From Rhizobium sp. Q54 (GTDB taxonomy: Bacteria > Pseudomonadota > Alphaproteobacteria > Micropepsales > Micropepsaceae), in the NCBI GenBank assembly GCA_945882615.1, contig CAMCWK010000001.1, positions 124,001-188,000 of the forward strand: a stretch of 64,000 nucleotides of DNA, given 5' to 3'. Both the position numbers and the translations under genes were made by a program. The notes under the pieces were generated by a model. The model searched no databases. It had not been told where the DNA came from and worked only from the letters and a program-made list of their open reading frames with translations. This document shows, in pieces, positions 14,338 through 37,738 of this stretch; positions within the stretch are counted from its first letter, which is position 1, and each line of letters begins with the position of its first letter.

Positions 14338-14799
14338 ATGAAGCTGTCTCGCAAGTTTATCGGGCTGGGCATCGCCGCCCTCGCCTTGCCCGCCATTCTG
14401 GGCACCGCCCTGCCCGCCGCCGCCCAGACCCAGCATCCGGTCAAGCATTTCAGCTCCGGCGCCGATGTGGCGGCCATGATCGCCGAGGCCAAGGCCAGCG
14501 GCGGCAACAAGAACATCCTGATCGCCAATGACGAGGGCTATCCGGTGATGATGGAGTTCCGCGTCAAACAGACCAACGCCTCCAACCATCCCACCCAGTC
14601 CGAACTGGTCGAAGTGCTGGAAGGCAGCTGCGTGCTGGTGACCGGCGGCAAGCTGGTTGATGGCGCGATCCAGGGCGGCACGTCGCGCCCGATCGCCAAG
14701 GGCGACTATGCCCTGATCCCGTCCAACACCCCGCACTGGTTCACCCAGCCCCAGGGCCTGGCGTTGATGACCATCCACATGCCGGTGCCTGCGAAGTAA
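14338..14799 (+). CDS. exported single-domain cupin protein
   Basis: 153 residues. Signal peptide to AAAQ near residue 30, then a cupin barrel. Its conserved parts are the NASNHPTQSELVEVLEGSCVLVTGG first motif, with metal-ligand-like His and Glu, and the KGDYALIPSNTPHWF second motif with the third His. The ATG follows a GAGGAGAGA Shine-Dalgarno. Enzymatic role unknown; exported cupins in sugar loci may be lyases, epimerases or binding proteins. Convergent with the quinoprotein dehydrogenase gene (gap 8 bases). Confidence 0.85.
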   Translation: MKLSRKFIGLGIAALALPAILGTALPAAAQTQHPVKHFSSGADVAAMIAEAKASGGNKNILIANDEGYPVMMEFRVKQTNASNHPTQSELVEVLEGSCVLVTGGKLVDGAIQGGTSRPIAKGDYALIPSNTPHWFTQPQGLALMTIHMPVPAK

Positions 14800-14807
14800 G
14801 CGGCTGC

Positions 14808-16982
14808 TCAGTCCAGGGCGAAGACGTACAGCACATTGCCCGTGCCGGGGCGGCGGACCTCGTGCAGCAGGGCCGTCGGCTTCGCTTGCGGGCTGCCGCC
14901 GCCAAGGCCGGTGGTGACGGCGATATATTGCTTGCCGTCCAGGCTGAAGCTGACCGGATAGCCCTGCACCGTGTTGCCCAGCCGGGTTTCCCAGATCACC
15001 TTGCCGCTCTTCACATCCACCGCCTTGAAGCGGCGGTCGAAGTCGCCCACGAAGGCGACGCCGCCCGCCGTGGACAGCACCGCCGACAGGAAGGGCGCGC
15101 GCTGCTCCCAGCTCCACATTTCCTTCATGTCGCTGGCGCGATAGGCCGACAGCCGGCCCAGCTGCTGTTTTGAGCCGGGGGTGAAGTAGAATTTCTGCTG
15201 GGCCGCGGTGCCGCCGCCGCCAAGCTTCTGGTCCACATCCAGGCCCCGGATCATCACGCAACTCTGGCTGAGGGGGATGATCAACTGGTCGCTGGGCTGG
15301 TGATAGCTGGTGGCCTGCCAGTCATGGCCGCCCTGCGGGCCCGGACACGAAGAGAACCATTCGTTGGTCTTCTGGTTGCGGATGTCCTCGCGATAGGTCA
15401 CCTCGCCCGTCTTCTGGTCGATCTTGGAAAAGACGTTCTGGAAGATGGTCTCCTTGGCGGCGATGAACTTGCCGGTGACGCGGTCCAGCTTCCACAGGAT
15501 GCCGGGCTTGCCGATGGTCAGCAGGGTCTTTTCCTGGCCGTGATCGACCAGCACGCGCTCGAACACCTCATCCAGGTCCAGCGTCTCGCCCGGGGCGTGC
15601 TGGAAATACCATTTCAGCGCGCCGGTATCGGGATTGAGCGCCAGGGTCGAGCTGGAATAAAGCGTGGCGGCGTCGCCGCTTTTGCGGCTGGCGCGGAACC
15701 AGGGCTTGGTCTGGGCCGTGCCCCAATAGGTCGTGTTGAGGTCGGGATCGTAGGTGCCCGCGATCCAGGTATCGCCGCCGCCGCGCAACAGGTTCGGCAG
15801 CCCGTTCCAGGTATCGCCGCCCGGCTGGCCTTCCAGCGCGGTGGTATGGAATTTCCAGGCCGGCGCGCCGGTTCTGGCATCGAAGGCGCTGATGTAACAA
15901 TTGTTCAGCGAATAGCTGTCGCAGCCGGTCATGCCCGACAACACCTTGCCGCGCATCACCATCACCCCGCCCGTGGCGGAATTGCGGTCGCTGCCCAGCT
16001 TCTGGCGCCAGACTTCGGCGCCGGTGCGCGCGTCCAGCGCATGGACCACAGCATCGGTGGTGGCGACATAGACCTTGTCTTCATAGATCGCCAAAGCGCG
16101 GTTGCCGCCATAGGCAACACGCGATTGCGGGCCCAGCCGGTTTTCCCAGATCAGGTCGCCGGTCCTCGCATCCAGCGCCTGCACCGTGTTCGACGTGTTG
16201 GCCAGGAAGATCACGCCGGCATGGACGATCGGGGTCGGCTGGTTGGCGCCAAACTCGTTCATGTTCCACGCCCATTTCAGCGTCAGGCCTTTGACGTTGG
16301 CGGCGTTGATTTGCTTCAGCGGGCTGTAGCTCCAGCCCTGGTAATTGCGCCGGTACATCAGCCATTCGCCGTCCGGCGGATTGCGCAGCATCTCGTCACT
16401 GACGTCGGTATAGTTTTGCACCGTGCCCTTGACGGTGTGACCCAGCACGAAGGGAAGGGTCGTCTGGTCCGGGCGTCCGGGCGGCCGGGTGATGGCCGGT
16501 GGGGATGCGGGCTGTTTTGCGCCGCGTGCCGACGGCTTGGCGGCAGCGATCTGCGCCGGGGCGCTGCCCGTGGCGACGCTGGAAATCCTGACGCTGACAG
16601 TTTTGTTGAAGGGCTTGGCGCCGGCTTTCGCGCCATTGGCCGCCAGCAGATAGGCAACGACGTTTGTGTATTGGGCTTCGCTCAGGCTGGCGGGCGCGCC
16701 CACAGGCATCGACACCGCGATGAACTTGTAGAAGTCGGCGGTGGTGCGGCTGCCCCAGGCGGTTACAAAGCCCTTGCCACCCACCGGCGGCGCGTCGCCG
16801 CCGCCCGTCAGATTGTCGCGGTGGCAACCGGCGCATTGCTGGGTGTAGACCGTCTTGCCGGCGGCGGCCTGCTGGGCGGTGTAGATGCCGGCGGCCTGTG
16901 GCTGTTGCTGGGCAACCGCATAGGCCCCGCCCAATCCGATAATGACGGCAGCGCCCGCCAGACGTTTCGCGGTAACCGACAT
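14808..16982 (-). CDS. PQQ-dependent quinoprotein dehydrogenase with N-terminal cytochrome c domain
   Basis: 724 residues from ATG 16982. Signal peptide to about residue 26, then a cytochrome c domain with CAGCH at 50-54 and a methionine candidate in VSMPVGAP. An eight-bladed PQQ propeller follows ([32 protein letters not shown], repeated LDARTG blades, [12 protein letters not shown]). It oxidises an alcohol or sugar in the periplasm and passes electrons through the haem. The haem domain precedes the propeller, whereas type II alcohol dehydrogenases carry it at the C-terminus. Its ATG lies one base after the CHRD gene stop, so it is translationally coupled. PQQ synthesis genes are not in the window. 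The substrate cannot be read from sequence. Confidence 0.9.
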
Positions 16983-16983
16983 G

Positions 16984-17433
16984 CTAGTTCCTTTTGGCTT
17001 CCAGCCAGCCCTGAAGATTGCCCTCAGGCGCTTTTTCACTGTCGATGCGGATATAGATCGCCTCGCGGTTCAGCGCTTCGATCTGGGCGGATGTGAGCTG
17101 CACACTGCCCGACACGGTGCCTTGCGGCGCGCGCGTGGCGGTCAGCGTTCCGATGGCTTCACCCAGCACGCCCTTCATAAGACCCATGCGCACCGACGCG
17201 GCGATCGCGGGCGAGGTCAGATCCTTGAAGGTGCCGTTCACGGTCAGGGTGTTGCCGGTCAGCGTGGCGCTGACCTGCCCGATGCTGCCGATGATATCAG
17301 CCCGGCTGGAGGCGTCGAACGGCGCCGGGTCAATCTGGGTTTCATAGTCCGCCGCTCGGGCGGGGGCCCACGCAGAAGCACAGACCAGCAACAGCGCGGC
17401 CGCGATTCCAAGAACGCGCGAAAAGCGTGTCAT
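16984..17433 (-). CDS. exported CHRD-domain protein
   Basis: 149 residues with a clear signal peptide (cleavage near PARAAD) and a GGGAGGGGG Shine-Dalgarno. The body matches the CHRD pattern: strands around [20 protein letters not shown], then a closing [24 protein letters not shown] domains occur in secreted bacterial proteins and in chordin; their role in bacteria is undefined. It is the middle gene of a TIM barrel-CHRD-quinoprotein operon, suggesting a structural or binding role near the dehydrogenase. Confidence 0.82.
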
Positions 17434-17456
17434 GCCCCCTCCCCTGGTCCGTCGCT

Positions 17457-18515
17457 TTAGATCTGCGGCGGCAGCTTCACGCCCAGCACATGACGCAGAT
17501 AGTTGATGTTGTGCATGATGTAATTGTCGGTCGCGACCTGAATATTGCCGCCGATGGCGTCAAAGCCGTCATCGCCCTTGCGCGGACCGTCCACGTCCAT
17601 CACCACCCAGCCCTTGAAGCGCCGTTCGCGCAGCACCTTGAAGATGCCGGGGAAGTCGACGCCGCCGCCGCCGAAATTGTGATAGACCGAGGCTTCCTTG
17701 TGCATTTCGGGCGTCGGGGTCTGTTTGTTGCCGCGGAACTTGGCATAGGTGTCCTTCATGTGGATCTCGGCCAGGCGCGGGAAATAGTCGCTGATCATCT
17801 GCACCGCATCGGCTCCGCCCAATGTCAGGTGCCCGGTATCGGCGGTGAGCCAGACATATTTGGGATCGGTCAGTTCCATGGCGCGGCGAATTTCCGCCTC
17901 GCGCTCCAGCGGGCCCCAGATGTGCGGATGCGGCGCCAGGCGGATGCCGTATTCCAGGGTGCGGCGACCCAGCTCGTTCAGCGTGTTGCAGAGCTGCTTC
18001 ATCTGCTCGTCATTGGGACCACCCGGCGGACGCGCGCCCATATTGATCTTCCAGTGATCACACTCGAACACCTGCAGGAAGTCGCGGGCGAAGGCGACAT
18101 GGTCCGCGATGGTCTTGGGAATGTGCTCTTTGTCTATGAAGTTTGTGGACTGCGTCTTTCCGCCATTGGAGGCGTCGATCATGGTGACGTTGTTGTCGCG
18201 GCAGATTTTGAGCAGCTCCTGGGGCTTGTTGCGATACTCTTCCCAACCACCGGCATAGGGCTCGATGCCCTGCAGTCCCAGCTTGGAGCACAGCCGGATC
18301 GCCTGTTCGGTGGAATAAACCCGTGTCGCGCCCGTGCCGGCCTCGCCCCAGATCGAGCCGGTGGTGCCGAACAGCATGTCGGGATTTACCGGATCGAGCG
18401 GCTTGTGCTTGAGCTTCTGCGCCCAGGCCGGCGCGCTGGTGGTCAGCCCGGCGGAAAGAGTCGCGGCGGCAGCGGTGGCGCCCACGATGAAATGACGGCG
18501 TTGCAATTTTTCCAT
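17457..18515 (-). CDS. Tat-exported xylose-isomerase-like TIM-barrel protein
   Basis: 352 residues. The N-terminus has a twin-arginine motif (QRRHFIVGA) and cleavage near PAWAQ, so the folded, metal-bearing protein is probably exported by Tat. The body is an AP-endonuclease-2/xylose-isomerase-like barrel: LGLQGIEPYAGGW, RLAPHPHIWG, WLTADTGHLTLGG (metal-binding Asp and His), RLAEIHMKDTY and GWVVMDVDGP. Sugar isomerases, epimerases and keto-glycoside lyases share this fold. It is the first gene of the operon with the CHRD protein and the quinoprotein dehydrogenase, so a sugar or keto-sugar substrate is a fair inference. Confidence 0.88.
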   Translation of the reverse strand: MEKLQRRHFIVGATAAAATLSAGLTTSAPAWAQKLKHKPLDPVNPDMLFGTTGSIWGEAGTGATRVYSTEQAIRLCSKLGLQGIEPYAGGWEEYRNKPQELLKICRDNNVTMIDASNGGKTQSTNFIDKEHIPKTIADHVAFARDFLQVFECDHWKINMGARPPGGPNDEQMKQLCNTLNELGRRTLEYGIRLAPHPHIWGPLEREAEIRRAMELTDPKYVWLTADTGHLTLGGADAVQMISDYFPRLAEIHMKDTYAKFRGNKQTPTPEMHKEASVYHNFGGGGVDFPGIFKVLRERRFKGWVVMDVDGPRKGDDGFDAIGGNIQVATDNYIMHNINYLRHVLGVKLPPQI

Positions 18516-18775
18516 GGCTGTTTCCCTAAAGAGCGTTTGTGTTTTGCTGGACGTTTGGGCGCGGGTGACATTAAGTCAAGTGCGGCGTAACGCGCGGCGC
18601 ATCCAAACTCCTGCTGCAATGCAACAAGCCCGCTGCTGGTGCGAAGATTTGCGACAGATGGCCTGCCTCGCCCGATTTACTCCCCCGCGCAAAAATGACA
18701 GCCTGTCTTTCGGGCGCGCATCTGGGTGCGCGGGGTGAAAAGCGGCGCAAGAAAAACAGCCGCGCTGGAGACGTC

Positions 18776-19753
18776 ATGAATACCACACGCAGAATGTTCG
18801 TCGGCATGGGTGCGGCGGCAACCGCTATGGCCGCGGCCGGCATGACGACAGCGAATGCGCAGTCCGCCAACAAGTCCAAGTTCTGGATCGCGGCGGTGAC
18901 GCCCTGTGACAAGAGCTACAAGTTCGATTCCGGCGCCTATCGTGAGCAGCTTGCCTGGTGGAAAAGCCAGGGCGCGGACGGTGTCCTGGTGCTGGGCACC
19001 AATGGAGAAGGCCCTTCCTTTTCGGTCGCGGAACGCAAGGCCGTCGCCTCGTTTGCGCTGAAGAACAAGATGGGGCTGGACATGATTGTCGGCACTGGAA
19101 CCGCCAATTACCAGGAAGCCATCGAACTGTCGCAACATGCGGCGGGCGAAGGCGCGGACAGCGTGCTGATCACCCCGCCCTTTTTCTTCAAGAGCCCCAG
19201 GCAGGACGGCGTGGTCAATTATTTCGACCTGATCTTCGCGCAGGTGAAGTCGCCGGTGCTTTACTACCATATCCCCCGCGTCACGGGCGTTCCGGTGGAT
19301 GTAACGGTGCTGAAGGCGCTGACCCGGCATCCCAATTTCATCGGCCTGAAGAATTCCAATGGCGATCCGGCCGAGTATCAATCCTTCGCCAGTGGGCTGC
19401 CGACCAGCCTCAACATCATCTCGGGCACCGACAACAATATGCTGGCAGCGCTGCGGCATGGCAGCGGCGTTATCCTGGGTTCGGGCAATATCTACACCAA
19501 GCAGGTGGCAGCGATTTTCGCGGCGCACCGCGCCGGGCGCGATCCGCAGCCGGAATATGACCGGCTGATGGCGGCGGTGAAGCTGATGCAGGCCAACGGC
19601 TATGGCAGCAACTACAACGCCATCAAATATGCGCTGAACCAGATGATGGGTGTCAGCCGCATCAACTATGCCCGCCCGCCGCATGTGCCCCTGACCGATC
19701 AGGAGATGGCCAGCCTGCGGGCCGGCGTCGCGCAACTCAAGGCAATGGGCTGA
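18776..19753 (+). CDS. Tat-exported dihydrodipicolinate synthase-family lyase
   Basis: 325 residues from ATG 18776 (GGAG upstream). The N-terminus NTTRRMFVGMGAAA is a twin-arginine signal with cleavage near ANAQ. The mature part is a DapA/NanA-type class I aldolase barrel: GTNGEGPSF at 74-82, Tyr164 in YYHIPRVTG, and Schiff-base Lys192 in FIGLKNSNGD. Family members cleave or dehydrate 2-oxo acids such as 2-keto-3-deoxy sugar acids. True DapA is cytoplasmic and about 290 residues, so an exported paralogue with another substrate is implied. It leads a plus-strand run with two cupins. Confidence 0.88.
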   Translation: MNTTRRMFVGMGAAATAMAAAGMTTANAQSANKSKFWIAAVTPCDKSYKFDSGAYREQLAWWKSQGADGVLVLGTNGEGPSFSVAERKAVASFALKNKMGLDMIVGTGTANYQEAIELSQHAAGEGADSVLITPPFFFKSPRQDGVVNYFDLIFAQVKSPVLYYHIPRVTGVPVDVTVLKALTRHPNFIGLKNSNGDPAEYQSFASGLPTSLNIISGTDNNMLAALRHGSGVILGSGNIYTKQVAAIFAAHRAGRDPQPEYDRLMAAVKLMQANGYGSNYNAIKYALNQMMGVSRINYARPPHVPLTDQEMASLRAGVAQLKAMG

Positions 19754-19812
19754 AGCAATTTTCGGCAGGCGCATGGTGTGGCTGCCGCTTTCTTTCTTCT
19801 GGAGACGAATTG

Positions 19813-20766
19813 ATGCGAATTTCGAAGCAGATCATGCTGGGCTGCGCCGCCGCCCTGGTGGCGTCGGGGGCCCTGCCCGTACTGGCGCAACCCGCCAAGT
19901 CGCTGCTGGCTTATTCCCCCAAGCCGACCAAGCTTCCGGCCTATGGCAGCAACAAGCCGGTGACCCGCCTTTCGGAGGTGCTGGCCAAGCATAAGGGCCA
20001 GGCCAGCTGGACCGAGCAGGTGATCAAGACCGACCGATTCGACACCCGCTGGGTGCAGATGGCGCCGGGCGAAAAGCTTTCCACCCGCTATTACGGCGAC
20101 GACCGCGTGATGTGGGTGGTGTGGCAGGGCCAGATCCGCTTCAACATCGAAGGCCAGGAGCCGTTCGTGGCCTCCAAGGGCTTCCTGGTGCAGGTACCGC
20201 AGCGCGTGCGCTACAGCGCCGAGACCGTCGGCAGCGAACCGTCTCTGCGCTATGAAGTGACCCGCTCCGGCCAGCTTCCCAACTTCCCCGCCGACAATGG
20301 CGAACCCAAGCCGCCCAATGCGCCGGATGGCACCGAATATGTGAAGGTGTCCACCCCCACCCTGCCCGACAAGTATGAAGGGGTGAACAAGCCGTTCGTG
20401 GATTTCTTCAAGGACGTGGTGGCAAAGGACCCGGTAAAGGGACCCAACCCGTCGCTGGTGATGATGGATGAAGGCAACATGTCCAACATCATCCGCGGCA
20501 AGGGCGTTGTCACGCCGCCGCCGAGCAACAAGGGGCACTTCCATGTCGGCCGCGACGAGTTCTGGTTCATCCTGGAAGGCAAGATCGATTACCTGATCGA
20601 GGATATCGGCCTGCTCACCGCCGATGCCGGCGACATCGTGTTCGTGCCGCCGGGCCGCTGGCATCGCGCCAGCTTCGCCGACGGACAGACCGACACGCGC
20701 CTGTCCTTCAACGCCAATCCCTACACATTCCACGCTTTCGGCCCCGATTCCGGCGGCTCGCAGTAA
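19813..20766 (+). CDS. exported cupin protein, first of a tandem pair
   Basis: 317 residues from ATG 19813 (GGAG Shine-Dalgarno; a TTG one codon earlier is ignored). Signal peptide to VLAQP, then two cupin-like halves. The first runs around RWVQMAPGEKLSTRYYGDDRVMWVV and the second carries GHFHVGRDEFWFILEG and DAGDIVFVPPGRWHRASF, with the HxH and Glu/His ligands of a metal cupin. It is closely related to the next gene along its whole length, so the pair arose by tandem duplication. No specific activity is assigned. Its position behind the DapA-like lyase suggests a sugar-acid substrate. Confidence 0.85.
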   Translation: MRISKQIMLGCAAALVASGALPVLAQPAKSLLAYSPKPTKLPAYGSNKPVTRLSEVLAKHKGQASWTEQVIKTDRFDTRWVQMAPGEKLSTRYYGDDRVMWVVWQGQIRFNIEGQEPFVASKGFLVQVPQRVRYSAETVGSEPSLRYEVTRSGQLPNFPADNGEPKPPNAPDGTEYVKVSTPTLPDKYEGVNKPFVDFFKDVVAKDPVKGPNPSLVMMDEGNMSNIIRGKGVVTPPPSNKGHFHVGRDEFWFILEGKIDYLIEDIGLLTADAGDIVFVPPGRWHRASFADGQTDTRLSFNANPYTFHAFGPDSGGSQ

Positions 20767-20778
20767 AGGACCGCAACC

Positions 20779-21732
20779 ATGCGAAACATCACGAAACTTG
20801 CGGCCGTAGCGCTTGCACTCCTGGTCATTCCCGCCACCGCGCAGGACCGCAAGGTTTACATGTCCTGGGCGCCCAAAAAGTTGATCGCCTATTCGGCGCC
20901 CAACAAGCCCATCACCCGCCTGCCCGAAGTGCTCGCCAAGCATAAAGGCCAGAAGAGCTGGAAGGAGGATGTGGTCAAAACCGACCGCTATCACGCCCAG
21001 TGGATCCAGATGGCGCCGGGTGAAAAGACCCGCACCGTCTTCTATGCCGACGATCGCACCGTCTGGATCGTGTGGGGCGGCCAGGTCCGCTTCAACATCC
21101 AGGGCCAGGAACCGTTCGTCGCCACCAAGGGCTTTTTGGTGCAGACGCCGCTGCGCATGCGCTCCAGCCTGGAAGTGGTGGGCAATGAACCGGCGCTGTT
21201 CTTCGAAGTGCGGCGCAACGACACCCTGCCCAGCTATGCCTTCAACGAAGGTGAGCCCGTGCCGGCCACAGTCGGTGGGCAGAAGTACGAAAAGGTCAGC
21301 TATCCGCCGAACCTGCGCGCCGGCGGCAACGTGCCCTATGATGACGTCAACAAGCCCTATCTGGATTTCTTCAAGGATGTGATCGCCAAGTATCCGAACG
21401 GCGGCAAGGGCTGGCCGCGCTATTTCGTCAACGACAAGGAAAACCAGCTTGCCATCATCCGCGGCATGGGCGTGCCCACCCCGCCGGATACCAACAGGGG
21501 TCATTTCCATGTCGGCACCGACGAATTCTGGTTCGTGCCAGAAGGCAAGATCGACTATCTGATCGAAGGCGTCGGCCTGATTACGGCCAATGCCGGCGAT
21601 CTGGTCTATGTGACGCCGGGCCGCTATCACCGCGCCAGCTTCGCCCCGGGCCAGATGGACACGCGGCTGGCCTTCAACCGCAGCCCCACCATGGTCCACA
21701 ACTTCGCCGAGGACGCGAACGGACGGCAGTAA
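20779..21732 (+). CDS. exported cupin protein, second of a tandem pair
   Basis: 317 residues, signal peptide MRNITKLAAVALALLVIPATAQ. The same two-cupin layout as its upstream neighbour, with GHFHVGTDEFWFVPEGKI and NAGDLVYVTPGRYHRASF. Shared segments such as VLAKHKGQ.SW, GQ.RFNI.GQEPFVA.KGFLVQ and NKP..DFFKDV show common ancestry with clear divergence, so the two probably differ in substrate or form a heteromer. The gap to the first cupin is 12 bases. It is followed by a strong terminator at 21754. Confidence 0.85.
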   Translation: MRNITKLAAVALALLVIPATAQDRKVYMSWAPKKLIAYSAPNKPITRLPEVLAKHKGQKSWKEDVVKTDRYHAQWIQMAPGEKTRTVFYADDRTVWIVWGGQVRFNIQGQEPFVATKGFLVQTPLRMRSSLEVVGNEPALFFEVRRNDTLPSYAFNEGEPVPATVGGQKYEKVSYPPNLRAGGNVPYDDVNKPYLDFFKDVIAKYPNGGKGWPRYFVNDKENQLAIIRGMGVPTPPDTNRGHFHVGTDEFWFVPEGKIDYLIEGVGLITANAGDLVYVTPGRYHRASFAPGQMDTRLAFNRSPTMVHNFAEDANGRQ

Positions 21733-21753
21733 CGAAGCTCAACCTTTGCAAGT

Positions 21754-21806
21754 CAGGCAGGCTGTGCGGGCGGCGCGTTATCGCCCGTGCAGCCTGTCTG
21801 CTTTTT
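21754..21806 (+). terminator. strong intrinsic terminator of the lyase-cupin operon
   Basis: Left arm 21754-21772, loop 21773-21781, right arm 21782-21800: a 19-bp stem with only G-T wobble imperfections, followed by TTTTT at 21802-21806. It lies 22 bases after the second cupin and 33 bases before the convergent esterase stop, so it may also shield that gene from read-through. Confidence 0.88.
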
Positions 21807-21838
21807 CCGGCCGATCCGCCTGGCATGAGACCGCTTGT

Positions 21839-22891
21839 TCAGGGCTTGTTGGCCAAGGTCCTGCTGAAAAACGGCAGAACGTGATCCTGAAACCGGAAAG
21901 CCAAATGGCTGACATGGGTTCCGGAATAGATTTCGAATGTGCTGGCTATGCCATAGCTCTGGAGAGCTTCGTGCAGTCGCTGCGTATCGGCCTTGAGCCC
22001 ATCCTGATCGCCCACGTCTAGCGCGATCGCGCGATACCGCCGCAGATTTCCCACATACTGATCCAAGAAGGCCAGAGGCGCGTTGGCTGCCCAGCGGGCA
22101 AGAACGGCCTGCTGCTTGTCCCCGTAAGGAAGGTCGACATAGAGCGGCGGGTTTTTGGGATTGGGCGACCAGGCCGAGGCCGCAGCCAGTTGCGCGCGCT
22201 GCGGAAAGGGAAGCTTGGCGGCCCCGTCCAGCGATTTCAGCGCCATGATGGGTGCTTCGTCCTCCGCCCGAGGCAGTGCCCGGGGCGCCAGACAACACGG
22301 GCTCATGATGTAAAGACTGCCGAAAACATCGGTATGCTTCATGCCGATGCGGGTTGCGCCGTAACCGCCCATGGAGTGACCGACCAATCCACGGCTTTCG
22401 CGCCGCGCCAGGGTGCGATAACGGCTGTCGATGAAAGCGACCAGATCACGCGCAATAAAGGTTTCAAAATCCCCCGTCGTGACGGAACTGGAATACATCG
22501 AGCCGTTATGCACCGTTTTGGAATCGGGCATGACGACGATCATCTCCGATACACCCTTGGCGAAGGCCCCCTCCACCGTCTGAGGCACGTGGATTTCCTT
22601 GCTCCATTGCTCCGCACCAATCGAATAGCCGTGCAGGGCATAGACCACCGGGTATCGCCTGCCAGGATTGGCGGCATAGCCCGGCGGCAGAAAGACCAGC
22701 ACATCGCGGTCCGCGGAATTTCCCTCCAGATTGCCCTCCAGCGCCGCGCCATGAACCTTGATGCGCTCCACGCCAACCGGGCGGGCGTCCTTTACCACCT
22801 CGGGCACCTGGGTCGGGGCCTGGGCGGAAGCCGACACCGCGACAAACGCCATCAAGCCGAATACCAGTGCGGACTTCTTCGCCAACGTCAT
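21839..22891 (-). CDS. exported alpha/beta-hydrolase esterase
   Basis: 350 residues from ATG 22891 (GGGAGGG upstream). Signal peptide to VSASAQ. Esterase D/feruloyl esterase-like fold: VLVFLPPGY, VVYALHGYSIG (oxyanion region), nucleophile in GLVGHSMGGYGATR, acid in DVGDQDGL and His in SGTHVSHLAFRF. Such secreted serine esterases remove acyl or feruloyl groups from plant polysaccharides. Tributyrin-type or lactone substrates are also possible. It follows the enolase-superfamily gene by 29 bases on the same strand and lies close to a GH51 arabinofuranosidase, which favours arabinoxylan side-chain removal. Confidence 0.86.
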   Translation of the reverse strand: MTLAKKSALVFGLMAFVAVSASAQAPTQVPEVVKDARPVGVERIKVHGAALEGNLEGNSADRDVLVFLPPGYAANPGRRYPVVYALHGYSIGAEQWSKEIHVPQTVEGAFAKGVSEMIVVMPDSKTVHNGSMYSSSVTTGDFETFIARDLVAFIDSRYRTLARRESRGLVGHSMGGYGATRIGMKHTDVFGSLYIMSPCCLAPRALPRAEDEAPIMALKSLDGAAKLPFPQRAQLAAASAWSPNPKNPPLYVDLPYGDKQQAVLARWAANAPLAFLDQYVGNLRRYRAIALDVGDQDGLKADTQRLHEALQSYGIASTFEIYSGTHVSHLAFRFQDHVLPFFSRTLANKP

Positions 22892-22920
22892 GAACCCTCC
22901 CCTGAAAAGTAAGCCTGACA

Positions 22921-24177
22921 TTACCACTGCGTATAGGATCCGTCCGGCCGATGATTGAGCGGCATGCCGGCGCGATAGACATTATATTCCGCGATCTTGG
23001 TCAGCTTGCCGATATCGACCTCTACGCCCAGCCCGGGCCGCGCATTGGGCCACATCTTGCCGTCCTTGAAATCGTAAACCCGTGGCAGGTGCGGCCATGT
23101 CCGGCTGCCGTCCCCCAGAATCTCCATCAAGGCCGGGATCGAGCAGGCGATAAGGCAATGCACCAGGGCGGCTTCGGCTATCGGGCTGGTGAAGTGCGGG
23201 ATCATGCCGACATAATGGGCCTCCGCCATGGCGATGATTTTCATATATTCGCTGATGCCGCCGACATTGGGCAGCGACGTGCGGACATAGTCGATCAGCT
23301 GCCGTTCGATCAGCCGGTTGATGTCCCATTTATAGCCCAGCTGTTCGCCCATCGCGATCGGCACCTTGGTGCGCTGGCGGATGGTCTCGTAGGTTTCGAT
23401 GCCTTCGCTGCGGATCAAATCCTCGATGAAATAGGGATGCAGGTCGGCCGCCTCGATCATGGTGCAGAGGCGGATCGCGTCCGGCGGATCGAACTGGGTA
23501 TGGAAATCCAGCGCCCAGTCGCCATCGCCCGCGCCCTTCTGCAATAGCAGGCAGTCATTATACATCCGCCGCACCAGGGCGAAGCGGTCGACTTGCGGTC
23601 CGCCGCCGATGTCCGTGGCATGGCGATAGACGCGAAAGCCCGCCGCGCGACAGGCGCGCGCCGCATCCTCGATGGTGCTGCCTTTGGGCCGGGGAAAGGC
23701 GGTGGAATAGCATTCGAGATAGTCGCGCGACTTGCCGCTCAGCAGTTGATAGACGGGCACGCCCAGCGCCTTGCCCTTGAGGTCCCACAGCGCCAGATCC
23801 AGGCCACCGAGAGAATGAAGCTTTTCGCGCCCCGCCGTGTAATGCATGCCCCGCATCATCCGCTGCCAGTGCATGTCGATGCGGAACGGGTCCAGGCCAA
23901 TCATCATCGCGGCGCACTCTTCCATGGTGCGCGGTTCCCCGCCCTCGCCGATGCCGCGAAGGCCGGATTCGGTTTCGATGATCACCACATTGGTCGACTG
24001 GTTGACCATGGGTTGGCCGCCGCGGCCGGCGCTGTCGCCAAAATTGCGATAGTAATGCACCGCCTTGATCTTGTCGGTTGGCAGGCCCAGCGCATCTGCG
24101 GTCGGCGGCATCCAGAACGCGCCCGAACCGATTGCGCCCAGTCCGCTCAATATCCCTCGCCGGCTCCACTGGGTCAT
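22921..24177 (-). CDS. Tat-exported enolase-superfamily dehydratase (mandelate racemase subgroup)
   Basis: 418 residues from ATG 24177, which has GGAGGG at a proper distance; ATG 24186 would leave no spacing. Tat-type signal QWSRRGILSGLGA. The enolase-superfamily capping domain has NVVIIETESGLRGIGEGG. The barrel has Asp224 and His226 (DFH), Glu252 (IEDLI), Glu278 (GEQLG) and His328 (PHFTSP). This ligand and base pattern is that of D-galactonate-type sugar acid dehydratases, which make 2-keto-3-deoxy acids. Known relatives are cytoplasmic, so the signal is unusual. It precedes the esterase and is divergent from GH51. Confidence 0.88.
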   Translation of the reverse strand: MTQWSRRGILSGLGAIGSGAFWMPPTADALGLPTDKIKAVHYYRNFGDSAGRGGQPMVNQSTNVVIIETESGLRGIGEGGEPRTMEECAAMMIGLDPFRIDMHWQRMMRGMHYTAGREKLHSLGGLDLALWDLKGKALGVPVYQLLSGKSRDYLECYSTAFPRPKGSTIEDAARACRAAGFRVYRHATDIGGGPQVDRFALVRRMYNDCLLLQKGAGDGDWALDFHTQFDPPDAIRLCTMIEAADLHPYFIEDLIRSEGIETYETIRQRTKVPIAMGEQLGYKWDINRLIERQLIDYVRTSLPNVGGISEYMKIIAMAEAHYVGMIPHFTSPIAEAALVHCLIACSIPALMEILGDGSRTWPHLPRVYDFKDGKMWPNARPGLGVEVDIGKLTKIAEYNVYRAGMPLNHRPDGSYTQW

Positions 24178-24433
24178 CTGCAGCATCCCTCCTTGCGTCG
24201 CAGGCAAGGTTGCGGAATTGCTTGGGCAAGTGCAATGACGGTCCCACATCATAGCCCCCCAATCGAGCAAGGCGCTCCCCGGCCGCTGGCACCGCGCACC
24301 AGCGCGAAACCGCATTATGACAAATACTCAGTGCCACAGTTCGGGCCTCTAGGGCGCGGTCGCGCGGCGTTGTCAGCGGCACATCGCCCCCGTATGGTTT
24401 GGACTTAGATCGACAAGCAGACGGGAGAAGGTG

Positions 24434-26026
24434 ATGAAAAAACTCACAACCGCAGCGCTCATCCTGGCCATGCTGGCCGCCGGCGCCGCCATCGCCCAGA
24501 ACGCGGCGGCGCCTGCTACCGATCCGGTGACCAGCGTCGACGTCACGGTCGATCTTTCCCGCCCGGGTGCGCCTATTGCCCGCCAGATATACGGCCATTT
24601 CGCCGAACATCTGGGGCGCGGGATTTATGAAGGTGTCTGGGTCGGCCCGGACAGCAAAATCCCCAATGTGCGGGGCTACCGCACCGACGTCGTCAATGCC
24701 CTGAAGCGGCTGCAGGTGCCGGTCATCCGCTGGCCCGGCGGCTGCTTCGCGGATCTCTATCATTGGCGCGACGGGATCGGCCCGCGCAGCCAGCGCCCTA
24801 CCCGCATCAATGTCCATTGGGGCGGCGTCACCGACAACAACAGTTTCGGCACCCATGAATTCATGGACTTCGCCGAACTGGTGGGCGCGGAAGCCTATGT
24901 CTCCGGCAATATCGGCTCGCTCAGCCCGTTCGAGATGTCGCAATGGGTCGAGTACATCACATCGGCCGAGGATGCGACGCTGGCGAACGAGCGCCGCAAG
25001 AACGGCCGCGACAAGCCCTGGAACCTGAAATACTGGGGCATCGGCAATGAGACCTGGGGCTGCGGCGGCAACATGCGGCCCCAAATGGCCGCTGCCGAGA
25101 ATGCGCGCTACATGGCGTTCGTCAATGCGCCCCGTGCGATGGGCATGATCAAGGTGGCCAGCGGCGCCAGCGGCAATCTCGACAAATGGCACGACTACAA
25201 GGCCTTTACCGAGGAGATGATGAAGAATGGTGGCCCGACCTTCGGCGACCATATGGAAGCGCTGAGCTATCATTATTATGCCATGCCCCCGGACCTGGCC
25301 CCCAAGGGGCCTGCCACCGACTTCAATGAAGAAGGTTGGGCAAAGCAGCTCCACTACACACTGGATATCGATCGCCAGCTCAAGGACGTGATCGCGATCA
25401 TGGATCGCCATGATCCCAAGAAGCAGACGGCGCTGTATGTCGATGAATGGGGCGCCTGGTATCAGCCGGAGAAGGGCTCGACCCCGGGCTTCCTCTACCA
25501 GCAGAACACCCTGCGCGACGCGCAGGTGGCGGCGCTGAGTTTCAACATCTTTCACCGCTATACCGACCGGATAAAGATGGCGAACATCGCCCAGATGATA
25601 AACGTGTTGCAGGCGATCATCCTGACCGACAAGGAAAAGATGATCCTGACGCCGACCTATCACGCCTTCGACATGTACCGCCCCTTCATGGAGGCGACGC
25701 CCTACCCGGCTTCCACTTCTGCGGCAGCCTATAAATTTGGCGACATCACCTTGCCGCTGATCGATGTTTCGGCGGCACGGGGCAAGGACGGAAAACTCTA
25801 CCTCGCCATCGTCAACACCGATCCAAAGCGGGCCGTCAGGGTGCGCACCAACCTCACGGGCAAGGCCGCCAGCGGTCAGATCCTGGCCTCAGACCGGATG
25901 GATGCGCATAACAGTTTCGACAATCCCAACGCGCTGGTGCCCAGGCCATTCCGCGGCGAGATGGTGGATGGAAGGCTCGTGGTCCAGATGCCGCCCATGG
26001 GCGTGGCCGTCGTGGCCGTGGATTAA
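24434..26026 (+). CDS. exported GH51 alpha-L-arabinofuranosidase
   Basis: 530 residues from ATG 24434 (GGGAGAAGG upstream). Signal peptide to AIAQN. GH51 fold: GHFAEHLGRGIYEGVWVG, VIRWPGGCFADLYHW, acid/base Glu206 in GIGNETWG, nucleophile Glu338 in YVDEWGAWY, and a C-terminal beta domain ending in PPMGVAVVAVD. It releases terminal L-arabinofuranose from arabinan or arabinoxylan. Many GH51 enzymes are intracellular and act on imported oligosaccharides; this one should work outside the inner membrane. The downstream neighbour is convergent. Confidence 0.93.
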   Translation: MKKLTTAALILAMLAAGAAIAQNAAAPATDPVTSVDVTVDLSRPGAPIARQIYGHFAEHLGRGIYEGVWVGPDSKIPNVRGYRTDVVNALKRLQVPVIRWPGGCFADLYHWRDGIGPRSQRPTRINVHWGGVTDNNSFGTHEFMDFAELVGAEAYVSGNIGSLSPFEMSQWVEYITSAEDATLANERRKNGRDKPWNLKYWGIGNETWGCGGNMRPQMAAAENARYMAFVNAPRAMGMIKVASGASGNLDKWHDYKAFTEEMMKNGGPTFGDHMEALSYHYYAMPPDLAPKGPATDFNEEGWAKQLHYTLDIDRQLKDVIAIMDRHDPKKQTALYVDEWGAWYQPEKGSTPGFLYQQNTLRDAQVAALSFNIFHRYTDRIKMANIAQMINVLQAIILTDKEKMILTPTYHAFDMYRPFMEATPYPASTSAAAYKFGDITLPLIDVSAARGKDGKLYLAIVNTDPKRAVRVRTNLTGKAASGQILASDRMDAHNSFDNPNALVPRPFRGEMVDGRLVVQMPPMGVAVVAVD

Positions 26027-31746: not shown

Positions 31747-33024
31747 CTACCCTCGGGCAGCGTCAGACCTTTCAACCCGCTGGCTCGGATCCACCATCAG
31801 CCAGGCAAGCGCTGCGACCGCATAGATTCCGGCCAGCACCAGCAGCGGAAAATTCCAGTTGTTGGTGGCGTCTACCAGATAGGCCAGAACCAGCGGGCTG
31901 AGGATACCGCCGACCTGCCCCACGGTGTTCATGGTTCCGGCGGTGACGCCGGCGTGACGCCCGCCCACATCCACCGCGGTGGCCCAGGCGGGCGCCAGCG
32001 TCAGCATTGAGCAGGCGCCACCGATAGCGATGAACAGGCCGGCGGCAAAGCCGCTGCCAACCTGTGTCGCCAGGAAGATGCCCAGCGCGGCCATGATGTA
32101 GCCGCCCACCCCAAAAGCACGGCGTGCGCTGCGCAGTCCGATCCTGCGCGCCAGCCTGTCGGAGCCCTCGCCGCCTGTCAGGTCCGCGACAAAGCTCAGC
32201 ATCAAGGGCAGGCCGGAGAAGATTGCCAGCTCCGCCCCCGTCATGCCGCGCGCCTGCGCCAGATAGGTTGGCAGCCAGGTGATGAAGAAATAAAAGCCGT
32301 AAGAGTTGGCGAAGGCCTGGATGCAGAGCGGCGCGACGGTCGGGGTTTTGAACACCGCCGTCCAGCTGCCCGATGGTTTGTCCTGTGTGGTGGAAAGCCC
32401 GCGCGTCGCCTCGATATGGTCGCGCTCCTGCACGGAAATTGATTTGTGTTCGCGCGGCTCGTCGCGGAACCAGACATACCAGGCGGCCGCCCACACCATG
32501 CCGACCAGCCCGAAAACGATGAAGATCATGCGCCATTCCAGCCAGCCGACCATGGCGGCCACCACCAGCGGCGTCAGTCCGCCCGCCAGATGGGCGCCGG
32601 CGAAGAAGATACCCTGGATGCGGCCGCGTTCCGTCAGGGGAATCCAGCGCGAATAGACCCGCGCCACCGACGGCCAGGCGCCCGCCTCGCCGATGCCGAA
32701 CAGGAAACGGATGATGACCATGGACGTAAAATTCCAGGCCACGGCCGTCAGCATGGTGAAGCCCGACCAGATCACCACCACCCAGGTGAGTACCTTGCGC
32801 GCGCCGTCGCGGTCGCACCACCAGGCGGCGGGAACGCCGAAGGCAGCATAGGCCACCGCGAATGCGCTGAAGATGTAGCCCATCTGGACCCGCGAGAGGT
32901 CGAGTTCGGCGCTGATCTGGGGCGCCAGCACCGCGATGCACACCCGGTCAAGATAGGTCACGGCAGCCAGCGCCATGGTGAAGGCGACGACACGATGGCG
33001 GACGCCGAATGTTGTGTGGCCCAC
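31747..33024 (-). CDS. MFS transporter, anion:cation symporter (ACS)-like
   Basis: 425 residues with about 12 hydrophobic helices. The start is GTG 33024 with AGGAGGGG upstream. The N-terminus FTMALAAVTYLDRVCIAVLAPQ, WWCDRDGARKVL (loop 2-3 motif) and the central RDEPREHKSISVQERDHI loop fit the ACS subfamily, which takes up hexuronates, aldonates, phthalate and related organic anions with protons. It is the last gene of a minus-strand run with a PQQ sugar dehydrogenase and a SelA-like enzyme, which suggests import of a sugar acid made in the periplasm. Confidence 0.88.
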   Translation of the reverse strand: MGHTTFGVRHRVVAFTMALAAVTYLDRVCIAVLAPQISAELDLSRVQMGYIFSAFAVAYAAFGVPAAWWCDRDGARKVLTWVVVIWSGFTMLTAVAWNFTSMVIIRFLFGIGEAGAWPSVARVYSRWIPLTERGRIQGIFFAGAHLAGGLTPLVVAAMVGWLEWRMIFIVFGLVGMVWAAAWYVWFRDEPREHKSISVQERDHIEATRGLSTTQDKPSGSWTAVFKTPTVAPLCIQAFANSYGFYFFITWLPTYLAQARGMTGAELAIFSGLPLMLSFVADLTGGEGSDRLARRIGLRSARRAFGVGGYIMAALGIFLATQVGSGFAAGLFIAIGGACSMLTLAPAWATAVDVGGRHAGVTAGTMNTVGQVGGILSPLVLAYLVDATNNWNFPLLVLAGIYAVAALAWLMVDPSQRVERSDAARG

Positions 33025-35062: not shown

Positions 35063-36298
35063 CTACACCAAGACCGCCTTGAGCCGCTGCGCCACGATCA
35101 GGTCTTCTCCCGGCTGCAGCATCCAGACACCGACAACGATAGCGTTTTGGGCGTCGGGCAGCCCCGCGGAAGCGCCTGTGCGCCCTGTTGAAGGGTTCAA
35201 TTCGATGGACGGAGAACCCTCGCGCAGGATTCGGGCAACCTCCAGCGGCGCTTTGCCGACCTTTGCCCAATCATAGCGCAGCAGCAGATGCGGCACGGCA
35301 TTGGCCACCGGCGGCACGAATATCTCGTGCGACAGGGTGGGGACGCCACTCAAATGCGCCGCGATACGTTCGGCGCGCTGGCGGCATTGCGCGAGAATGT
35401 CATCGTCGCTTTGCGCCAATATCCAGTCCACCGCCGCAACCATGCCGACAATCTGCTCCTTGGCCACTTTCAGGCCCCGGCCCACCGTGTCGCTGTTGGG
35501 ACTGTTGTTCCAAGTGGCCGCGTCGATCAGGTCCTTGCGGCCCAGCAGCAGTCCGGCATTCTGGGGCCCCCGCAGCCCCTTGCCGCCAGAAAAGGCGACT
35601 AGATCGAAACCCATCTGGGTGTAATTCCACAGGTTGGAGATCGGCGGCACGTCGGCGGCCGCATCAATGAAGCATGGCACGCCTTTGGCGCGCGCCACAG
35701 CAACCCATTCCTGACGGCTGATGGTTCCGGCTTCCGCCGCATTGTAGAAAAAGCACATCACGGTGCGGTCGGTGAAGGCCGTTTCATATTGCGCCAGCGT
35801 TTCCACTTCCACGAAACGCGTACCGCAATTCCTCACGGCCTGGTCGTATCCGAAGCGATGGCCTTTCTGGACAATCACCTCGTGCTTCAGCCCGGAGACC
35901 TCCAGCGGCAGCAGCTTGGTTGCCGCGCGATTGCCCAGCGTCATGCAGCCTGCCGTGCCCAGTGTGAGGGCGGCGGATGCGCCAGAGGTTACCAGCGCGG
36001 CTTCGCATTTGAGACGTCCGGCAATGTATTCGCCTGCCCGCCTCTGCAATTCCGCCAGACGCACGGGATGCCTGGCGGCCCCGGCCACCGCCGCCTGCAC
36101 CTCAGGCGGCATGATCGAGGCGGTCAGTGCGGTATAGGTGCCGGCGGCATTGATGATCTTGGCGACGCCCAGCTTGTCGTAATAGTCCGTACCAGCCGCG
36201 GCGGTCTGGGCGACAGCCCTGCCCGGCGCCGCGGCCGTGACACCCGCAGCCGCCAACGCATTACGCGTCCAGGAAAAGAAGCCGCGGCGTCTCAGCAT
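35063..36298 (-). CDS. exported SelA/D-glucosaminate ammonia-lyase-like PLP enzyme
   Basis: 411 residues from ATG 36298, with GGGGGAG just upstream. N-terminus LRRRGFFSWTRNALAAAG resembles a Tat signal with cleavage near AVAQ. The mature part is a fold-type I PLP enzyme of the SelA-like group: INAAGTYTALTASIM, TSGASAALTLGTAGCM, Asp212 in FIDAAADVPP and PLP lysine Lys240 in AFSGGKGLRGPQNAG. The group includes selenocysteine synthase and D-glucosaminate(-phosphate) ammonia-lyases. No selB/selC or selD is seen, so a sugar amino acid lyase is likelier. Export of a PLP enzyme is unusual. Confidence 0.83.
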   Translation of the reverse strand: MLRRRGFFSWTRNALAAAGVTAAAPGRAVAQTAAAGTDYYDKLGVAKIINAAGTYTALTASIMPPEVQAAVAGAARHPVRLAELQRRAGEYIAGRLKCEAALVTSGASAALTLGTAGCMTLGNRAATKLLPLEVSGLKHEVIVQKGHRFGYDQAVRNCGTRFVEVETLAQYETAFTDRTVMCFFYNAAEAGTISRQEWVAVARAKGVPCFIDAAADVPPISNLWNYTQMGFDLVAFSGGKGLRGPQNAGLLLGRKDLIDAATWNNSPNSDTVGRGLKVAKEQIVGMVAAVDWILAQSDDDILAQCRQRAERIAAHLSGVPTLSHEIFVPPVANAVPHLLLRYDWAKVGKAPLEVARILREGSPSIELNPSTGRTGASAGLPDAQNAIVVGVWMLQPGEDLIVAQRLKAVLV

Positions 36299-36352: not shown

Positions 36353-37615
36353 TTATTGTGCCGGCTTTGGCGTCAGGCGGAACATGCCGCCTGTGGTGCT
36401 GTCCTCCAGCACCCAGATCGCGCCATCGGGCGCGACCGCGACATCGCGGATGCGCTTGCCCATATCGAAGCGTTCGGCGGCCGTGGCGCCGCCCTTGCCA
36501 TCGAAGGTGACGCGAGTGAGCGAACGGCTGACCATGCCGCTGATCAACGCCGAACCATTCCAGTTCGGAAACATGTTGCCCTTGTAGAAGGCGATGTTGC
36601 CAGGAGCGATAACCGGATTCCAGTAAATCACCGGCTTGGTGATGCCCGCGGGATTGGTGTCGGGGCTGGGAATGGGCTTGCCGTTATAATTGGTGGCGTA
36701 AGCAACTAGCGGCCAGCCGTAATTCTTGCCCGGCTCGATCAGGTTCAACTCGTCGCCGCCGCGCGGGCCGTGCTCAACTTCCCACAAACGGCCATCGGGA
36801 CCGAATGCCAGCGCGTAGGGGGTGCGATGGCCGCTGGTCCAGGTCTCGGACGGGGTGAGGTTCCGACCGTTCGGGAAGTTATAGGTGTAGGCGATCGGCG
36901 CAGTCTTGGCCGCTTCGGTGTCGGCGGGCGGATTTATGATGCCGGCACTGGCAGCGCCGGTCTTGCCGGCGTTGGGATTGCCCGGTGCGGGTTTGCCGTC
37001 CAGCGTCAGGCGCAGAATCTTGCCCAGCGGCTGGTTGGGGTCCTGGGCGGGGGTGAAGCGCTGGCGTTCGCCCACCGACAGGAAGAGGAATTTGTTGTCG
37101 GGCGAGAAGGCGACGGCAGCGCCAAACTGGCCGCCGCGGCCACGGGCGCCATCACGCCAGATGACCTGAAGGCCTTCCAGGCTGGCCGTGGCCTGACCGT
37201 TCGCGTTCTTGCCGAACTCGAGCTTGGCCTTGGCCAGCGCCAGGCTTGAGCCGCTGATGCCGCCCAGGGTGCCGGGTTCGGAATAGGTGAGATAGACGGT
37301 CTGGTCGCTGGCAAAATTGGGCGAGACATAGATGCCCAGCATGCCGTTCTGGTTGCTGTACTGGGCGGCCGGGACGTTCAGGACCGCGGTCTTGAGCCCC
37401 TTGTCCGTCACCACCCAGATGGGGCCGACCTTTTCGGTCACCAGCATGCGCCCGTCCGGCAGGAAGGCCATGCGCCAGGGCAGGTTGAAGGTGGTCACCT
37501 GATTGAGGGTGAAAGGCAGCGCCGCTGCCGGCTTCTGGTCGCCCATATTGACCTGGGCGGTCGCCGGGATCGACGCCACAGCCAGAATTAAAGCCGATCT
37601 TACAAAGGTCTTCAT
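36353..37615 (-). CDS. PQQ-dependent aldose sugar dehydrogenase (YliI/Asd type)
   Basis: 420 residues from ATG 37615 (AAGGGGC upstream). Signal peptide to PATAQ. A soluble six-bladed sugar dehydrogenase propeller: LPWRMAFLPDGRMLVTEK, LFLSVGERQRF, GHRTPYALAFGPDGRLWEVEHGPRGGDELN (PQQ and calcium region), KNYGWPLVAY and VAVAPDGAIWVLED. It oxidises aldoses to lactones in the periplasm, with PQQ as cofactor. It heads the minus-strand run ending at the MFS gene, but a hairpin separates it from the next gene. Confidence 0.93.
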   Translation of the reverse strand: MKTFVRSALILAVASIPATAQVNMGDQKPAAALPFTLNQVTTFNLPWRMAFLPDGRMLVTEKVGPIWVVTDKGLKTAVLNVPAAQYSNQNGMLGIYVSPNFASDQTVYLTYSEPGTLGGISGSSLALAKAKLEFGKNANGQATASLEGLQVIWRDGARGRGGQFGAAVAFSPDNKFLFLSVGERQRFTPAQDPNQPLGKILRLTLDGKPAPGNPNAGKTGAASAGIINPPADTEAAKTAPIAYTYNFPNGRNLTPSETWTSGHRTPYALAFGPDGRLWEVEHGPRGGDELNLIEPGKNYGWPLVAYATNYNGKPIPSPDTNPAGITKPVIYWNPVIAPGNIAFYKGNMFPNWNGSALISGMVSRSLTRVTFDGKGGATAAERFDMGKRIRDVAVAPDGAIWVLEDSTTGGMFRLTPKPAQ

Positions 37616-37738
37616 GAGCCCCTTCCTCTTGTTTTCAAGCATCCTAAGCCACAGGCATGGCACAGAGCTAGCCCCGCCCCGGACCCGCCCTGCGGCGGCT
37701 ATCGGGCGCAGAATCGCTCCGCCATATCTGACTGACCC

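Follow-up and report, generated by a model that had tools for sequence, protein, structure and literature searches.

The window analyzed here is a 64,000-nucleotide stretch of Rhizobium sp. Q54 (assembly GCA_945882615.1, contig CAMCWK010000001.1), corresponding to positions 124001 to 188000 of contig C1 in a 2.85-Mb genome of 56 contigs. Between positions 14338 and 26026, flanked by MazG/HflX-type genes on one side and metallo-β-lactamase/TatD/HolB/Tmk-type genes on the other (names read from sequence), it carries ten genes that an earlier note on this DNA had read as one sugar-acid degradation pathway operating entirely in the periplasm. All ten open reading frames are uninterrupted, and scans with Pfam and NCBIfam profiles agreed with each of the families that had been named, namely a cupin, a quinoprotein, a CHRD protein, a TIM barrel, a DapA-like lyase, two bicupins, an esterase, a dehydratase, and a GH51 enzyme. 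Related genomes are designated below by G-numbers, with G000 for the window's own genome, and fetched gene neighborhoods by L-numbers. Comparison with these relatives revealed that the ten genes fall into two modules whose adjacency here is incidental.

Module A opens with cup1 (14338 to 14799, plus strand), a predicted exported single-domain cupin with a Sec-type N-terminus (PF07883, 27.3 bits, cut-off 27.2), relatives of which stand at the same place in other copies of the module. It is followed on the minus strand by a quinoprotein dehydrogenase with an N-terminal cytochrome c (14808 to 16982; PF01011, 184 bits, and PF13442), a CHRD-domain protein (16984 to 17433; PF07452), both predicted to be exported, and an IolE-like TIM barrel with a twin-arginine translocation (Tat) signal that is probably a metal-dependent eliminase or hydratase (17457 to 18515; PF01261). 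On the plus strand, a Tat-signaled DapA-family lyase (18776 to 19753; PF00701, 149 bits), which is optional in module A, precedes two putatively exported two-cupin proteins, bicupA (19813 to 20766; PF07883), with one metal site in its C-terminal domain, and bicupB (20779 to 21732; PF07883), which is 59% identical to bicupA and has the same metal motif. Module B comprises a predicted exported PF00756 esterase (21839 to 22891, minus strand; 94 bits), a 79% identical relative of which lies beside the dehydratase in locus L108; a Tat-signaled, galactonate-dehydratase-like enzyme of the enolase superfamily (22921 to 24186, minus strand; PF13378/PF02746); and a GH51-type α-L-arabinofuranosidase that is likewise predicted to be exported (24434 to 26026, plus strand; PF06964, 150 bits; NF051901 ArfA, 215 bits, below its cut-off of 625). 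Two glutamates in the GNE and DEWG motifs of the GH51 sequence, read by eye, are what we take to be its catalytic pair. Starts were trimmed to 16982 for the quinoprotein, 18776 for the lyase, 22891 for the esterase, and 24186 (or 24177) for the dehydratase.

The earlier note had placed an export signal on every gene, including three enzymes of normally cytoplasmic families with the twin-arginine motifs QRRHFIVG, TTRRMFVG, and WSRRGILS. We scanned for Tat signals with a home-made search for two arginines closely followed by an uncharged hydrophobic stretch, and since such a scan favors start codons that yield a signal, controls matter. Matches beginning past query residue 60, duplicate entries for one protein, and spans shorter than 150 residues (except for cup1 and CHRD) were left out. 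With the window's own sequences included, Tat signals were called in all 27 distinct dehydratase sequences (21 in a first set and 6 added later), in 22/22 TIM-barrel sequences, and in 18 of the 19 DapA-like sequences, where L015 (G074:C184) was the sole relative without such a signal. Among the controls, there were no Tat calls in 34 housekeeping sequences or in 33 DgoK/DgoA sequences, and DgoK showed no signal when its full-length start was used. The genomes are related, so these counts are not independent events; nevertheless, conservation of the predicted signals excludes their arising by chance, and the three motifs can be regarded as real. The window's genome also encodes TatC (237.8 bits, cut-off 25.1). 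The Sec calls of the same scan were unspecific, appearing through inner start codons in 5/34 housekeeping sequences (all TatD) and 21/33 DgoK/DgoA sequences, and we therefore discarded Sec counts as evidence. For the cupins, quinoprotein, CHRD protein, esterase, and GH51 enzyme, export is thus predicted from N-termini that look classical by eye (a basic start, a hydrophobic stretch, and A-x-A) in the window and in relatives. The relative lists of bicupA and bicupB share members, so the two counts cannot be treated as independent, and the only GH51 entry lacking a signal (L006) is a truncated copy of L024. Together, these predictions bear out the claim of a signal on each of the ten products, including those from cytoplasmic families.

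Module A, in the order cup1, quinoprotein, CHRD, TIM barrel, and then bicupA and bicupB, occupies the same chromosomal site in relatives. Six genomes have it whole or almost whole (G018, L025; G039, L027; G075, L091; G081, L093; G054, L096; and G025, L097), and in four others (G070, G060, G069, and G077) it is truncated by contig ends. In the window, G018, and G039, the DapA gene separates the TIM barrel from bicupA, and in G060 it adjoins bicupA, while no DapA match at E ≤ 1e-40 was found anywhere in the genomes of G075, G070, G081, G054, and G025. Beyond bicupB, the esterase, dehydratase, and GH51 genes were absent from all seven genomes in which this side could be read (G018, G039, G075, G081, G054, G025, and G060). 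In G070, the three are grouped on a different contig, with unrelated genes around them (L108); in G069, GH51 and the dehydratase lie beside a GH95 gene (L107); and in G034, GH51 adjoins a DapA gene (L024). Since the modules part in relatives and DapA is missing from five of them, we rejected a single ten-gene pathway. The expectation that the gene set would recur in other genomes held for each module and failed for the combination. What stands of the joined pathway is the logic of oxidation followed by dehydration outside the inner membrane, with its predicted signals and intact key residues.

The dehydratase (E ≤ 1e-60) occurs in 21/96 genomes of the order, among them every one of the 17 that encode the TIM barrel (at E ≤ 1e-70, including paralogues of about 50% identity), although these are related species and not independent evidence. 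Across the class, the bicupin was found in 3/387 genomes (limit 1e-30), the lyase in 2/289 (1e-45), and the dehydratase in 2/289 (1e-70), and the only match outside the genus at these limits was a 40% identical bicupin in G104. A single-sequence query against genome contigs returned one locus, on the same contig as that of G018, and dehydratase relatives on plasmids were all less than 60% identical. Separately, G104, which belongs to another family of the class, has an esterase 68% identical to that of the window (L121, 5872 to 10434), near a GH95-length gene with a twin-arginine motif, a bicupin, and an MFS-like gene (GH95 and MFS read by eye).

The best NCBIfam match of the dehydratase is PRK14017, galactonate dehydratase (GalD), at 192 bits; as this falls under the cut-off of 311, we describe an enzyme that would work like GalD and do not file it as GalD. 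D227, H229, E255, E281, and H331, along with one further glutamate, are invariant in 21/21 sequences, and we take the five named residues to be the three metal ligands and two catalytic histidines of the mandelate racemase/GalD type. The residues listed in the earlier note as D224, H226, E252, E278, and H328 are the same positions, numbered three lower, and are intact as it said. A sister dehydratase, 58 to 64% identical, is Tat-signaled in 19/19 loci, and its neighbors include DgoA in 17, DgoK in 16, and a galactonate-type major facilitator superfamily (MFS) carrier in 13 of these. In some loci a neighbor is missing because the contig ends, but in L139 and L114 it is truly lacking from the stretch; L139 belongs to G078, whose second dehydratase (L110) is near DgoK and DgoA. 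That second enzyme is of the window type (84% identical) and lies about 4 kb from the two genes. The window's genome has its own set (L115), with DgoK (PF05035, 273.5 bits), DgoA (NF006600, 280.7 bits, above its cut-off of 207), and an MFS carrier (TIGR00893, 273.7 bits, below its cut-off of 395). Among the eight window-type dehydratase loci, GH51 is present in three and a metallo-β-lactamase-fold gene with a signal-like N-terminus in five.

By their families, DgoK and DgoA are presumed to be cytoplasmic. Since Tat-signaled sister dehydratases stand beside DgoA, DgoK, and the MFS carrier, the likeliest route is one split between the periplasm and the cytoplasm, and a pathway that is all periplasmic is not supported. 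The simplest reading is a De Ley-Doudoroff route divided by the inner membrane, in which the acid would be dehydrated outside and its product phosphorylated and cleaved inside. Because the dehydratase is predicted to be exported, what the carrier brings in would be the 2-keto-3-deoxy acid and not galactonate. Like the De Ley-Doudoroff pathway (DgoD, DgoK, DgoA, and DgoT), the sister loci cluster a GalD-like dehydratase, DgoK, DgoA, and a DgoT-type carrier; unlike it, the dehydratase here is Tat-signaled and the window's own copy is not beside DgoK and DgoA.

The nearest solved structures to the quinoprotein are an alcohol dehydrogenase (4cvb) and a sorbose dehydrogenase (4mh1), and its TIGR03075 score is 367 bits, below the cut-off of 480. 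CxxCH is kept in 15/15 sequences and D469 and K492 in 12/12 aligned rows (three are gapped). The cofactor-site R, T, W, D, and K are mostly kept, and glutamine stands at what we take to be the places of E55 and N261 of methanol dehydrogenase; a solved relative, 22vi, also has glutamine at the E55-like place in the alignment. The CHRD gene accompanies the quinoprotein closely. Among the fetched loci, we detected 21 distinct CHRD relatives, each of them no more than 300 bp away from a quinoprotein match; about half are module A itself. CHRD-domain proteins thus gain a regular partner. Some of these CHRD-quinoprotein loci also have an adjoining bicupin.

Synthesis of pyrroloquinoline quinone (PQQ) was assessed through PqqC, PqqD, and PqqE, with PqqA and PqqB outside the search. 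PqqD was found in none of six genomes tested. PqqC exceeded its cut-off in 20/96 genomes of the order (23/96 at E ≤ 0.001) and PqqE in 21/96 (94/96 at E ≤ 0.001), and neither did so in G000 or in any of the 17 TIM-barrel genomes; the PqqE matches under the cut-off were weak among the matches listed and were not counted. Six of the 17 genomes are 58 to 89% complete, and the misses carry little weight there because completeness is below 90%, whereas G000 is given as 100%. With PqqC, PqqD, and PqqE not found in the window's genome, we rejected PQQ synthesis by that genome, and PQQ oxidation as the earlier note gave it is not supported; the cofactor would be scavenged, or the oxidation done otherwise. 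The locus resembles the periplasmic quinoprotein oxidation of sugars in Pseudomonas and acetic acid bacteria in having a predicted exported PQQ-type dehydrogenase with cytochrome c and differs from it in that dehydratases and lyases also carry signals and that none of the three PQQ genes sought was detected. To our knowledge, the known systems of this kind stop at the acid or keto-acid.

The TIM barrel gave profile matches to IolE (3cny, 4.6e-22) and to 3-keto-glycoside enzymes (8tcd, 1.2e-12; 8ro4, 4.7e-11). Its AlphaFold2 (AF2) model has a predicted local distance difference test score (pLDDT) of 91 and, in comparison by VIA, superposes on IolE 3cny with a Z of 30.1 and a root-mean-square deviation (rmsd) of 3.0 over 283 aligned residues; Foldseek matches of the model include AL1 and AtHYD. 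H196 and H198 are kept in 22/22 sequences, and D226, H229, H252, K254, and D307 in the 21 aligned (one is gapped). Judging by their entry titles, the solved relatives act on keto-sugars or keto-cyclitols. Since the nearest relatives are inosose dehydratase and 3-keto-glycoside enzymes, module A fits formation of a ketone followed by elimination better than the aldonate route to which it had been assigned. With a quinoprotein next to the TIM barrel, the likely chemistry of the pair is oxidation to a ketone and then a metal-aided elimination. The myo-inositol pathway provides the nearest solved structure and NCBIfam model (IolE), but the TIGR04379 (IolE) score of 97 bits is far below the cut-off of 290, the enzyme is Tat-signaled, and module A gave no match to any further inositol-pathway family.

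In the bicupins, a 3His-1Glu metal site, HxH(x)4E...H, is invariant in the C-terminal domain of 29 sequences, and the N-terminal domain lacks it. The AF2 model of bicupA (pLDDT 90) was compared by VIA with salicylate 1,2-dioxygenase of the salicylate/gentisate type (Z 20.9, rmsd 3.9, 241 aligned), quercetinase (Z 19.4, rmsd 3.8, 233), and oxalate decarboxylase (Z 18.1, rmsd 4.9, 237), and because these scores are too close, the modeled fold does not settle the function. A bicupin paralogue in G018:C3 (L123, 7765 to 16648) shares an 18-kb stretch with DUF1080-like, Gfo/Idh-like, and AP_endonuc_2-like genes (read by eye), as in 3-keto-glycoside clusters.

Module A might instead deglycosylate plant glycosides, a reading that we consider unlikely, although it is the best of the alternatives. 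The quinoprotein would form a 3-keto-glycoside, the TIM barrel would eliminate or hydrate it like 3-keto-glucopyranoside-1,2-lyase and AtHYD, the bicupins would be dioxygenases of the aromatic aglycone, and the lyase would perhaps act on a pyruvate-yielding fragment. The TIM-barrel profile matches (8tcd/8tcs/8tct and 8ro4), its Foldseek neighbors AL1 and AtHYD, the modeled likeness of the bicupin to salicylate/gentisate dioxygenases and quercetinase, and the company of the bicupin paralogue in L123 are all consistent with it. Hydrolysis of 3'-ketolactose in Caulobacter has been proposed to be periplasmic (PMC9007349), and AtOGE is a Mn2+-dependent β-eliminase with a TIM barrel (PMC10628242); as here, the pathway of AL1, AtHYD, and the Caulobacter hydrolase would join oxidation to a ketone with an extracytoplasmic enzyme or a metal-dependent TIM barrel. 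On the other hand, IolE is nearer to the TIM barrel by both sequence and fold, a quinoprotein here replaces the flavin or Gfo oxidoreductase, module A has neither a Gfo/Idh nor a DUF1080 gene, and the bicupin scores are close across several cupin families.

The lyase has the Schiff-base Lys192 that the earlier note had pointed out, and both it and Tyr164 are invariant in 19/19 sequences; the Schiff-base lysine and catalytic tyrosine of the DHDPS/aldolase superfamily are thus both present. Its DapA equivalog score of 148.9 bits is below the cut-off of 206, and V169 and F138 occupy what we presume to be the places of the DapA-defining Arg138 and Tyr107. On both counts, we rejected a true dihydrodipicolinate synthase. 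DapA-like paralogues of about 45% identity adjoin a PQQ-type dehydrogenase gene in six loci (L029, L030, L031, L032, L033, and L034; in L030, the dehydrogenase gene runs off the contig), and a TonB-receptor-like gene (read from sequence) also adjoins in L029, L031, L032, and L033. The lyases of L029 and L031 to L034 are Tat-signaled except that of G074 (L034, scanned as L015). The lyase thus recurs alongside quinoprotein oxidation, also where no dehydratase is present.

A complete nonphosphorylative pathway in the periplasm, in which GH51, the esterase, PQQ oxidation to an aldonate, the dehydratase, and the DapA lyase act in turn and pyruvate plus an aldehyde or semialdehyde is taken up, strikes us as rather improbable. 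Every activity it needs is adjacent in the window and signaled, the Schiff-base lysine is intact, GH51 adjoins DapA in G034 (L024), and L-arabinonate and D-galactonate share the same C2-C4 configuration. The Weimberg and Dahms routes for L-arabinose and D-xylose proceed in the same order, namely oxidation, dehydration, and a DHDPS-family lyase, but their enzymes are cytoplasmic, while those here are all export-signaled and the lyase is optional. Five module A relatives without DapA, the separate position of module B in G070, the sister dehydratases beside DgoK and DgoA, and the failure to find PqqC, PqqD, or PqqE all argue against this pathway. We give little credence to the view that the proteins are mostly binding, moonlighting, or decayed enzyme relatives that form no pathway; the failure of all ten products to reach an NCBIfam cut-off and the several paralogues per genome, which suggest loose functions, speak for it, but the key residues are invariant (in the dehydratase down to 58% identity, the TIM barrel to 43%, and the lyase to 38%) and the association with DgoK/DgoA is conserved. 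That the signals are annotation artifacts on cytoplasmic enzymes is highly implausible, since the two arginines and hydrophobic stretch recur in 67/68 sequences of three families and in 0/67 controls, even though the start codons were chosen by us, the Sec calls are unspecific, and the signals come from a home-made scan and not a dedicated predictor.

The best explanation overall, and one to which we lean by a little, remains a route split between the periplasm and the cytoplasm, in which two adjoining exported sets of enzymes would attack sugars in the periplasm by oxidation and then elimination, with the finish in the cytoplasm. In module B, GH51, the esterase, and the GalD-like dehydratase would free an arabinofuranosyl-type sugar and dehydrate its acid outside the inner membrane; the acid would be L-arabinonate or D-galactonate, which is stereochemically equivalent, and the product a 2-keto-3-deoxy acid. 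A galactonate-type MFS carrier would take up this product for the cytoplasmic DgoK kinase and DgoA aldolase encoded elsewhere in the genome; alternatively, in species with the lyase, the Tat-signaled DapA-family enzyme may cleave or dehydrate the acid in the periplasm. In module A, the quinoprotein, CHRD protein, TIM barrel, and bicupins would first turn a hydroxyl of a sugar, cyclitol, or glycoside into a ketone, after which they would eliminate water or the aglycone. The sequences themselves show which genes are present, the conservation of signals and key residues, the division into two modules, and the company that sister dehydratases keep with DgoA and DgoK, whereas all substrates, and any joining of the two modules, are what we infer.

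Several points weigh against the split route. DgoK and DgoA are near the window-type dehydratase in only one of its eight loci (L110), and the window genome's own set lies on contig C13 beside a 62% identical sister and not beside the window's dehydratase. The region from 14338 to 26026 has no transporter and no regulator, none of its ten products is named by an NCBIfam model at cut-off, and the oxidation step depends on scavenged PQQ or another oxidase. The cargo of the MFS carrier is presumptive, and the periplasmic location of the enzymes is a prediction from their signals. Finally, the tie between lyase and quinoprotein is unexplained by the step order of the earlier note and is not fully explained by the split route.

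Elsewhere in the window, on the minus strand, lies a gene for a DgaE/SelA-type pyridoxal phosphate enzyme with a twin-arginine signal (35063 to 36298), together with a GSDH-type sugar dehydrogenase with a signal-like N-terminus (36353 to 37642) and a galactonate-type MFS carrier (31747 to 33024). These genes are perhaps a second set that oxidizes, eliminates, and imports, in this case for amino-sugar acids. DgaE relatives occur in 13/96 genomes, and 18 of 30 N-termini were called Tat by the scan, with twin arginines visible by eye in 28; across 14 loci, an MFS neighbor was seen in G070 and G075 and a close GSDH gene in G070 only. Two further observations concern the minus strand. A cytochrome-type protein with DUF1592/1588/1585/1587 domains (45866 to 49653) has a protein with a twin-arginine motif beside it, a pair typical of Planctomycetes. 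A β-keto acid cleavage enzyme (57635 to 58567) scores above the NF053538 cut-off (3,5-dioxohexanoate:acetyl-CoA acetone transferase) and adjoins a 3-hydroxyacyl-CoA dehydrogenase-type gene.

In the titles and opening lines of abstracts among the matches listed, from a search that covered few subscription papers, we found no description of an exported galactonate-type dehydratase, an exported DapA-type lyase, or a CHRD-quinoprotein pair. We see an even chance that, in one alphaproteobacterial clade, the first half of Entner-Doudoroff-type sugar-acid catabolism has shifted to the outside of the inner membrane, where a quinoprotein, Tat-exported dehydratases, and a Tat-exported DgaE-like ammonia lyase would yield periplasmic 2-keto-3-deoxy acids for MFS import to DgoK and DgoA, with some species adding an exported DapA-type aldolase that splits the acid before uptake. 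If so, sugar-acid dehydration, which is taught as a cytoplasmic step, would be extracytoplasmic in a whole clade, and the 2-keto-3-deoxy acid would be the compound that crosses the membrane. The annotation of transporters would change accordingly, as transporters bearing the name of galactonate would instead move the product of its dehydration. Such an arrangement would explain the twin-arginine signals on enzymes of cytoplasmic families and would offer these bacteria a way of keeping reactive keto acids and aldehydes outside the cytoplasm.

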